A DNA stretch of 64,000 nucleotides. Source: Bacteroidota bacterium (GTDB lineage: Bacteria > Bacteroidota > Bacteroidia > Flavobacteriales_D > Crocinitomicaceae). Each line of letters opens with the position of its first letter. Position 1 is the stretch's first letter. The position numbers were made by a program, and so were the translations under genes. The stretch covers positions 1-64,000 of the forward strand of contig JACPUU010000002.1 in assembly GCA_016192075.1 (NCBI GenBank), given 5' to 3'. Below the pieces are notes generated by a model. That model searched no databases, was not told where the DNA came from, and saw only the letters and a program-made list of their open reading frames with translations. Positions 562-3,759 of the stretch are shown here, one piece after another.

Positions 562-1929
562 CTAACTTCTACCAAACCCCGGAATTTCATCGAGCCTTTT
601 TTCGGCCGTATACCGCCTTTTTTCCAGGTTCAGATTTCCAAAATAATTCAGGTAAATCAGAATAAAGGCAAAGATAGAGTAGACCGGAATTTTATAACGG
701 CCAAGTGCACCAAAATTATACGATGTAAAGCCCACCACAAATCCAAAAATCAAACTGTAAATCAAAAAAGTGTAGAGAATTGGTTTTTCACGGATGTAGC
801 GCATAAACCGGAATCCAAGTTTATAGAACACCATCAGGCAGAGTAACAGCAGGGCAACACTCTCAAAAGCAGCCAGCATAACTACCGGGTTGCGGGCTTC
901 CCAGATATAAGGTCTGAAAAAGGTAACGTTGAGTGCGGCCGGAATTTTCCGCGCAACACCTGTCGGGGTATATTCCAGTTCACCCAGGTTGTACGATGAG
1001 CCGCCAACATCGGTATGCCAGGTATGAAATCCGCGGATGCGTGATTCAATAGATTCTACCGTGTATTTTTCAGAAGCCTCCTGCAAAAACTGTGGGCCAA
1101 TGTAAATGATTGAACCGGTAAAGAGCAGCAGAACCAAACCCAACCCGCGTTTGATTAGTTTGTTGCGGATTTCTACTTTGATCATTTCATTTATGCCGAA
1201 TAAAAGTGCCGGTAAAAAAGCCAGTATGATGTATCCCTTCATGAGAAAAACGACGGTGGCCGCAATCAGCGCTCCCACAAAAAGAGATAGTTTGAATTTT
1301 TTCTTGAACAGTGAAAAGTACAGGCAGTAAATAACGTAATTAATTCCGGCCAGGGTAAAGGTATCTTTCATAACACCGCTTCCCCAGAAGAGCGCAGAAG
1401 GAACCAGGAAAACAGCTGCAAAAGCAAGATCTTTGCGCTGAGGCAGAATATCTTTGAAAACGAGGTACAATTTCCAGCCGCCCCAGAATGAGATGAGTGA
1501 CATAAAAAGCGTACTGACCAGGTATGAGTGAAATGAAATCAGCATTAGTGGTGAAAACAGTTTCACCATAAACCACTCTTCGGCTCCGCGTGAATAGGTA
1601 ATGCGCTGTTCAAACTGCCACAGATCAGGCGGCAGGTTATCATTTTCAGCAACCAACAGGCGAAAATAGGTGGCCGGATCGTGCGTGAGCGTTTCAGCCA
1701 TGACACTGCCTCCTTTGGCATAAACAAAGGTATCTCCAAACGTATAATAGTAATTGAAAATATAGACGTAGGTGACGCCGGCAACTACTTTAATCACAAA
1801 GCCCAGCAGAAAATACCGGTACTTTTCTTCATCCCTTGACCATTTGTAGATCATCAGCAAGCTAAACAGGATGGCAAAATACGTCAGCCATATTCCCCAG
1901 TCAATCCATGTGATGGTTACACTTTCCAT
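562..1929 (-). CDS. Polytopic membrane protein of unknown function
   Basis: This is a 455-residue protein dominated by hydrophobic segments, about ten by eye, starting with one at residues 11-28. The first outward loop carries the acidic pattern FGDTFVY around D66. A loop Asp of this kind is seen in GT-C glycosyltransferases and related polymerases, but I cannot assign the protein to that class. The C-terminus is basic and probably cytoplasmic. The gene is divergent from the deacetylase/formyltransferase pair, so a role in glycan assembly is possible by context only. The ATG at 1927-1929 is the natural start. Confidence 0.8.
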   Translation of the reverse strand: MESVTITWIDWGIWLTYFAILFSLLMIYKWSRDEEKYRYFLLGFVIKVVAGVTYVYIFNYYYTFGDTFVYAKGGSVMAETLTHDPATYFRLLVAENDNLPPDLWQFEQRITYSRGAEEWFMVKLFSPLMLISFHSYLVSTLFMSLISFWGGWKLYLVFKDILPQRKDLAFAAVFLVPSALFWGSGVMKDTFTLAGINYVIYCLYFSLFKKKFKLSLFVGALIAATVVFLMKGYIILAFLPALLFGINEMIKVEIRNKLIKRGLGLVLLLFTGSIIYIGPQFLQEASEKYTVESIESRIRGFHTWHTDVGGSSYNLGELEYTPTGVARKIPAALNVTFFRPYIWEARNPVVMLAAFESVALLLLCLMVFYKLGFRFMRYIREKPILYTFLIYSLIFGFVVGFTSYNFGALGRYKIPVYSIFAFILIYLNYFGNLNLEKRRYTAEKRLDEIPGFGRS

Positions 1930-1995: not shown

Positions 1996-2003
1996 TATAT
2001 TTG
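1996..2003 (+). promoter_or_regulatory. -7 promoter box TATATTTG
   Basis: This is an exact match to the Bacteroidota -7 consensus TAnnTTTG, inside the 12-mer CGTATATTTGTA (1994-2005) that recurs upstream of the genes at 34396 and 44231. The start of transcription would be near 2008. No good -33 TTG is seen at the usual spacing. Confidence 0.6.
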
Positions 2004-2033
2004 TAGTTTAGTAATATAATACATCCAACGCAT

Positions 2034-3002
2034 ATCAACGGCATCTTTTGCATATCACTTGATTTTGAAAAATTCTGGGGAGTCCGGGATGTTACTGATT
2101 TCAAGCAGGTAGAAGCCCGGTTTAAACAGGTGAAACCGGTTGTAGAGGGCATTTTAAACCTGTTTGAAAAATATGAAATTCATGCAACCTGGGCTGTTGT
2201 GGGCTTGCTGGAGGCCAATTCGCCGGATGAACTGATTGAAAAAAACAAAGGCAAAACCATTTCGTACCGCCACAAAAAATACAGCCCTTTTCCAATCACG
2301 GCTGAAAAATACGGTCAGATTCCGTTTGAAATACTGGGGGCTGCGGCTGAATTAAAACAAATCAGTGCTGCCCGCAACCAGGAACTGGCCTCGCACACGT
2401 ATGCGCATTTTTATACGCTGGAAGTAGGGCAGACGGAAGCGGAGTTTAAAGCAGACCTGGCTGCCATGAATCGTTTGGGAGAGGCTCTGCAGCATCCGTT
2501 CAGGAGTATCGTTTTTCCCAGGAACCAGGTAAACCAGGCGTATCTTGACTTGCTTGCCAGGGCCGGTTATGCAGCTTTCAGGGGAAACCAGGAAAATGCT
2601 GACTGGGCAAATTCAACCTATCAGGCTGAAACACGGAAGCAAAAAATAAGACGTGTATTGGATGCGTATTTTAAATTATCAGCGACCAAAGTATTCAGGG
2701 TAAACGAACTGCCGGTTCAAAATGGTTTAGTAAATATTCCCGCCTCACGGTTTCTGAGACCCCACCGCGGAAATTTTTTTCTGGAGAACCGCAAACTCAA
2801 ACGGGTCACAAATGAGATGACACGGGCGGCATTGAATGGCACCATCTATCATTTATGGTGGCACCCGCACAACTTTACGTTTCACCCTGAAAAAAGCCTT
2901 GCCCAGCTTGAAAAAATACTGCTGCACTTTAAGCAGTTGGAAAAATCACATGCATTTGTTTCAAGAAACATGGCTGAAATTGCTGCCTATGCAAAAACGT
3001 AA
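2034..3002 (+). CDS. Polysaccharide deacetylase (NodB family), start codon unclear
   Basis: Enzymes of this family remove N-acetyl or N-formyl groups from amino sugars, using a metal held by an Asp and two His. The frame holds the first motif (SLDFEKFWG, around 2055-2081), the HxxxH metal motif (SHTYAH), FPRNQ and a late WWHPHNF. The first usual start codon is GTG at 2130, but that would remove the catalytic Asp motif. The frame is open from 2007, yet it has no ATG, GTG, TTG or CTG before 2130. I place the start provisionally at ATC 2034; ATA and ATC codons nearby are alternatives. The 3' end overlaps the formyltransferase gene by 14 nt, so the two are probably co-translated. Confidence 0.75.
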   Translation: MNGIFCISLDFEKFWGVRDVTDFKQVEARFKQVKPVVEGILNLFEKYEIHATWAVVGLLEANSPDELIEKNKGKTISYRHKKYSPFPITAEKYGQIPFEILGAAAELKQISAARNQELASHTYAHFYTLEVGQTEAEFKADLAAMNRLGEALQHPFRSIVFPRNQVNQAYLDLLARAGYAAFRGNQENADWANSTYQAETRKQKIRRVLDAYFKLSATKVFRVNELPVQNGLVNIPASRFLRPHRGNFFLENRKLKRVTNEMTRAALNGTIYHLWWHPHNFTFHPEKSLAQLEKILLHFKQLEKSHAFVSRNMAEIAAYAKT

Positions 3003-3759
3003 ATTTGTTATACTGGCCACCGAAGGTGTTACAACCAATTTGCTTTGTGAAGAATTAAGCAGGCATGGTACCGTTGAGGCTGTTATGCTGGAAGAAAATG
3101 AATCAGCCCGGGTAAAAATAAAACGCCGCTTCCGGAAACTTTCATTTTTCAGGGTAGTGAGTCAGCTGTTTTTTTTGTTTTTTCTGATGCCTATGCTGTC
3201 ACGTGCTGCCCGAAAGCGAATGGCCGAAATTGTTAAAACGGCGGGGTTTAAAAATCAGCCGTGTGATTCTGCCGGAATAATTCGGGTGAAAAGTGTCAAC
3301 GATGCTGAAACGGTTGCGTTGATTTCAAAAATAAATCCTGATTTTGTTTTTGTCAACGGAACGCGGATTATCCACAAAAAAATACTGGATCAGATAGCGG
3401 TTCCGGTACTGAACATTCACGTAGGCATTACACCCAAATACCGCGGTATACATGGTGGTTACTGGGCACTGTACAGGGGTGATGCAGAAAATTTTGGCGT
3501 TACGTTACATTATGTAGACGCAGGGGTTGATACCGGAAAAATTATTTCACAAAAACGAATAAAACCCGGTGCCGGTGACAATTTTGCGTCGTACCCGGTT
3601 TTACAGTTTATTGCCGGGCTGGAACTGGCATCCGCTTTTTTCAGCAATGGAGGGGAGCAGGTAACTGAAACGGCCGGGCCGGTAACTGAAAGCGGGCAGT
3701 ATTATCACCCGGGGTTCTTTCAATATCTTTTCAAACGCTGGTTTGGCGGTGTCCGCTAA
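2989..3759 (+). CDS. Formyltransferase-family protein (sugar or amine N-formyltransferase)
   Basis: This is a 256-residue protein with a Rossmann-like start (KFVILATEGVTTNLL) and the formyltransferase core LNIHVGITPKYRG. The family's active-site triad is visible as N142, H144 and D181 (GVDTG), so it should use formyl-tetrahydrofolate to formylate an amine. It lacks the C-terminal RNA-binding domain of methionyl-tRNA formyltransferase, so a small sugar-linked acceptor is more likely than tRNA. A hydrophobic stretch at about residues 58-70 is unusual. The ATG at 2989 was chosen because everything upstream in this frame lies inside the deacetylase gene and does not resemble the family. Confidence 0.8.
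   Translation: MQKRKFVILATEGVTTNLLCEELSRHGTVEAVMLEENESARVKIKRRFRKLSFFRVVSQLFFLFFLMPMLSRAARKRMAEIVKTAGFKNQPCDSAGIIRVKSVNDAETVALISKINPDFVFVNGTRIIHKKILDQIAVPVLNIHVGITPKYRGIHGGYWALYRGDAENFGVTLHYVDAGVDTGKIISQKRIKPGAGDNFASYPVLQFIAGLELASAFFSNGGEQVTETAGPVTESGQYYHPGFFQYLFKRWFGGVR

Follow-up and report, generated by a model that had tools for sequence, protein, structure and literature searches.

A conserved AUC/AUU codon as the probable start of a polysaccharide deacetylase gene in Crocinitomicaceae

Results

Analysis of a 64,000-nucleotide stretch of genomic DNA from a Bacteroidota bacterium of the Crocinitomicaceae (contig JACPUU010000002.1; hereafter, the window) revealed a gene encoding a polysaccharide deacetylase that is probably intact and translated from AUC at position 2034, in a column that also holds AUC or AUU (AUY) in most related genes. 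The argument for this start is a comparison of sequences across the family. The positions of the features discussed are given in Table 1.

Reading frame at the deacetylase locus

The deacetylase frame is open from 2007 to 2999 on the forward strand and ends with a TAA stop at 3000-3002. From 2007, the codons read TTT AGT AAT ATA ATA CAT CCA ACG CAT ATC(2034) AAC GGC ATC TTT TGC ATA(2052) TCA CTT GAT TTT GAA. An earlier annotation made from the letters alone (the sequence-only reading) had stated that this frame contains no ATG, GTG, TTG or CTG between the TAG at 2004-2006 and the GTG at 2130, which is the first canonical in-frame codon. This was confirmed, and a canonical start is likewise missing in six of the eight orthologs. 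The catalytic motif SLDFEKFWG and the promoter box TATATTTG were likewise found where that reading had placed them (2055-2081 and 1996-2003). Its statement that ATG is missing from every frame holds upstream of the catalytic motif and fails after it, where an out-of-frame ATG is present at 2089-2091. The gene had been described as having no usable start codon, which is probably incorrect: its start is likely to be usable, though non-canonical.

Table 1. Features of the deacetylase locus and of related genes
Feature	Position	Strand	Remark
Divergent membrane protein gene, ATG start	562..1929	-	Conserved neighbour
Predicted -7 promoter box TATATTTG (Bacteroidota TAnnTTTG)	1996..2003	+	Box upstream of ATY column, nine genomes
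In-frame stop TAG	2004..2006	+	5' of deacetylase gene
Proposed start codon ATC	2034..2036	+	ATC/ATT in same column in six orthologs; ATG in L020, L021, L026
CE4-like polysaccharide deacetylase CDS, 322 aa	2034..3002	+	PF01522 match, model, fold neighbours
Predicted strand beta-1, residues 3-11 from ATC	2040..2066	+	Model; directly after ATC
Rare ATA codon, Ile of FCISLDFE	2052..2054	+	ATA 9/9
First catalytic motif SLDFEKFWG	2055..2081	+	Asp at 2061-2063
Second motif H-T-Y-A-H	2394..2408	+	Both His invariant in alignment
Formyltransferase-fold gene, overlaps deacetylase end	2989..3759	+	Conserved partner
Glycosyltransferase (LPRWYPN)	G000:C1:316755-317921	-	L178
infC, ATA start, strong SD (AAGGGGG, GGGAGG)	G000:C20:229927-230427	-	Loci L043, L136
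infC in relatives, ATA start			Loci L035-L037, L040, L045, L046, L049, L051, L052

Conservation of the ATC/ATT column

Searching 240 genomes of the family for homologs of the deacetylase revealed nine other homologs, namely, eight orthologs and a more distant one (G055, locus L011) that starts at ATG. The eight orthologs have F-C-I-S-[LI]-D-F-E-K in common and are 44 to 50% identical to the window protein. Codon identity with the window at conserved residues is 42 to 49%, and synonymous sites are therefore essentially saturated. The divergent membrane protein gene flanks the deacetylase gene in seven of the eight orthologs, the contig of the eighth ending too early, and the overlapping formyltransferase-fold gene is present on the other flank in all eight; rlmH lies near the pair in six.

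The column of codon 2034, two codons before a conserved Gly, is occupied by ATC in the window, G104, G070, G096, and G011 and by ATT in G059 and G025. In none of these seven genomes, which represent three genera and mostly show 44 to 56% pairwise identity, does a canonical start precede the Asp motif. The two remaining orthologs have a canonical start further upstream and did not keep ATY in the column: G046 carries ATG two codons upstream and AAT in the column, and G022 carries TTG three codons upstream and TCA in the column. An alignment with relatives had been proposed in the sequence-only reading as a way to see whether they carry ATG at this position; six of the eight orthologs gave ATC or ATT, and the other two gave no ATG either. 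ATG is nearly always the start in distant homologs of the class, and in three of them it stands exactly in the ATY column. A near-cognate codon is thus conserved in the orthologs at the position homologous to AUG starts.

If positions were free and independent, the product for ATC or ATT at one fixed codon in six genomes would be about 7e-8, a value that marks the contrast with the unconstrained case and is not a p-value because the genomes are related by descent. Between ATY and the catalytic motif, the residues of Gly-x-Phe-Cys are constant while their synonymous positions vary, which indicates that this stretch is translated. The tree places G046 as the sister of the remaining eight (91/91) and G022 next to G025 (98/94). 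The most economical history is then a single AUG-to-AUY change on the stem of those eight, followed later by TTG in G022.

Promoter and leader

All nine genomes have a -7 box, exact or relaxed, 22 to 47 nt 5' of the ATY column, and the mRNA should therefore begin just before the ATY codon. The box is an exact TAnnTTTG in five genomes and TAnnTTCA in the remaining ones; the exact motif occurs at 0.74 per kb in these loci. The predicted leaders are about 10 to 25 nt long in most genomes. G011 has two candidate boxes, the distal one giving a leader of about 35 nt. For G022 and G046, the prediction puts the canonical start almost at the 5' end of the mRNA. Between the box and ATY, no canonical triplet (ATG, GTG, or TTG) occurs in any frame in the window, G104, G070, G059, or G096. 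In this interval, a TTG occurs out of frame at -11 in G011, and G025 has an out-of-frame ATG at -7 of ATY that runs immediately into a stop.

No Shine-Dalgarno (SD) sequence upstream of the ATY column is conserved across the orthologs, and A at -3, the start context favoured in F. johnsoniae (PMC6847099), is absent before ATY; both points speak against initiation at ATY. Folding of four leaders revealed no conserved mRNA structure at the start, the leaders folding about as shuffled sequences do (z from -1.56 to 0.25). Ribosomes of the Bacteroidia conceal their anti-SD, and in F. johnsoniae, as in many other Flavobacteriales, an obvious SD has been reported for rpsU only (PMC9976891).

The deacetylase and its partner

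The deacetylase protein matches PF01522 with 31.9 bits (gathering cut-off in Pfam, 23.1) and scores below the cut-offs of the named NCBIfam deacetylases. Fold neighbours of its structure model (pLDDT 72.8, built from five sequences) are CE4-type deacetylases, e.g., 3qbu and 3rxz; a PDB sequence search returned nothing credible. The likeness to CE4-type enzymes (3qbu, 3rxz, and the PuuE and ArnD folds) comprises the Pfam match, the fold, and H-T-x-x-H, HTYAH fitting the motif 2 pattern H-[ST]-x-x-H. The first motif is different, SLDFE in place of TFDDG, with the first Asp retained and the second replaced. A start at ATC 2034 gives a complete strand beta-1 in the model.

The deacetylase and formyltransferase-fold genes form a constant overlapping pair (2034-3759 in the window). 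The partner protein scores under the cut-off of every named family. De-N-acetylation of an amino sugar followed by its N-formylation would be a plausible pathway for this pair.

Alternative starts

The codon at 2052, six codons downstream of ATC 2034, is ATA in all nine genomes, although ATA makes up just 11 to 26% of their Ile codons; the other invariant Ile columns are mostly ATT or ATC. A start at 2034 gives no account of this invariance, which counts against it. Translation could instead begin at ATA 2052 (M-S-L-D-F-E), with ATY belonging to the leader, or both codons could be used, and it fits such a start that infC begins at ATA in the same genomes and that ATA starts are likely for a YigZ gene and a lipoprotein gene in G004. 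An initiation at ATA 2052, alone or mixed, nevertheless appears clearly unlikely. It would cut beta-1 in half in the model, it would leave untranslated the upstream G, F, and C residues, which are conserved with synonymous change, and no SD precedes the ATA. G055 also has this ATA, and so do G046 and G022, whose canonical starts lie further upstream. The codon may serve as a secondary AUA start, as a slow codon, or as part of a nucleic-acid motif.

Initiation at some other place is very improbable. The window does offer the near-cognate codons ATA 2016 and 2019, and GTG 2130 is the first canonical codon of the frame, but upstream stops leave just three codons before ATC in G104, G070, and G096, and the orthologs share no upstream codon. 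As the sequence-only reading had anticipated, a start at GTG 2130 would cost the short protein its catalytic Asp; in the model, beta-1 and part of helix 23-46 are lost as well, and this truncated product was rejected on conservation together with the model. Frameshift or readthrough from an upstream frame was rejected too, there being no ATG, GTG, or TTG in any frame from the box to ATC in the window. Still less credible, to the point of being negligible, is a pseudogene or a sequencing or assembly error that destroyed an ATG. ATC and ATG differ by a single base, and the window genome (4.65 Mb) is an assembly of 22 contigs; yet seven genomes of three genera, assembled separately, display the same state with alternation of C and T at the third base, and the frame, the catalytic residues and motifs, and the synteny are all conserved. 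The sequence-only reading had offered two branches, a rare start codon or a start lost by mutation or sequence error. The first is supported for ATC 2034 by ATC/ATT in the column of the orthologs and ATG in that of distant homologs, and the second was discarded on the evidence of the relatives.

Proposed initiation at AUY and the role of IF3

For initiation at AUC 2034, an ancestral AUG in the column would have changed once to AUC/AUU on the branch to these genera, with AUY kept since. The product would begin fMet-Asn-Gly-Ile-Phe-Cys-Ile-Ser-Leu-Asp. In the tRNA loci that were read, CAU is the anticodon of the initiator tRNA-Met and tRNA-Ile(GAU) is ordinary, and AUC/AUU would therefore be read with a third-base mismatch. 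No special initiator tRNA reading AUC was present among these loci (12 weaker tRNA matches were left out). The ordinary initiator tRNA would thus act, with this mismatch, on an mRNA with a short leader and without a conserved SD, and initiation would therefore be weak and perhaps limited by IF3. IF3 strongly disfavours initiation codons with weak third-base pairs in vitro (PMC10158994), which counts against an AUY start. Control of the deacetylase gene by IF3 at the level of translation is conceivable, with the balance somewhat against it.

The gene for IF3 itself, infC, starts at ATA behind an SD in the window genome and in nine family genomes examined, and its first canonical codon lies deep inside the domain. 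In eight other genomes of the family infC starts at ATG, as it does in other genera of the family, and in G022 probably at TTG. The SD before the ATA of infC is strong in the window genome and the nine relatives; in Flavobacteriales, an SD had been reported for rpsU alone. It may be that, in SD-less Bacteroidota, a few genes including infC and the deacetylase gene use conserved AUH starts as translational dimmers read by IF3, the deacetylase gene doing so with a short leader, without an SD, and perhaps with help from the downstream AUA; this wider proposal is speculative and, taken whole, rather unlikely.

Comparison with known non-canonical starts

The infC gene of Escherichia coli has a near-cognate AUU start and is autoregulated. 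An AUA start is used by infC of S. aureus (PMC13009471). The deacetylase gene resembles infC in its conserved AUH start replacing AUG. It differs in that infC here has a strong SD and encodes the regulator itself, whereas the deacetylase gene uses AUC/AUU with no conserved SD beside it. In Streptomyces, the GTC start of sigR is repressed by IF3, which demonstrated IF3 control outside infC (PMC5472188). Like sigR, the deacetylase gene is a gene other than infC, has a conserved non-canonical start, and is the first of an overlapping gene pair; unlike sigR, it has ATC/ATT and not GTC, it belongs to another phylum, and its control by IF3 is something we only infer. In S. aureus, ccpN (AUA) and cvfC1 (AUU) have conserved starts that hold translation low (PMC13009471). 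These share the conserved AUH codon with the deacetylase gene, but they are directed by an extended SD. The deacetylase gene is set apart from SD-bearing near-cognate starts because it is without a conserved SD. The open-access literature searched contained no report of an AUY start in Bacteroidota that is both SD-less and conserved across a clade.

Gene callers based on ATG, GTG, and TTG would miss this enzyme or cut it to GTG 2130, without the catalytic Asp. The locus is also a naturally occurring case in which to test how ribosomes that disregard the SD can select a non-AUG start and whether IF3 controls genes besides its own in Bacteroidota.

Other genes without a canonical start

A census of headless genes, based on codon bias and not on homology, covered parts of three genomes. 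In the window genome (746 kb, 523 ORFs), only the deacetylase gene and one glycosyltransferase gene were recovered. G004 (800 kb, 633 ORFs) yielded a YigZ gene and a lipoprotein gene, both with ATA, and G010, in which infC starts at ATG (740 kb, 494 ORFs), yielded none. The infC gene of the window genome passes the head test and, with a score of 11.5, just missed the threshold of 12; the census is therefore conservative. A genome-wide habit of ATx starts was not supported by the census, and a restriction of such starts to genomes with an ATA infC was weakened by a headless YigZ gene in G006.

The glycosyltransferase gene has no ATG, GTG, or TTG before its conserved N terminus, and a CTG or ATC start is likely; most of its orthologs have canonical starts. 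For the YigZ/IMPACT family gene of G004 (C1:350432-351043, minus strand, L158), an ATA start is likely. Its counterpart in G006 (L174) is without a canonical start, and the start codons of this gene differ widely within the Crocinitomicaceae. In the lipoprotein-like gene of G004 (C1:167508-168161, plus strand), the signal peptide opens with ATA AGA AAA and not with ATG.
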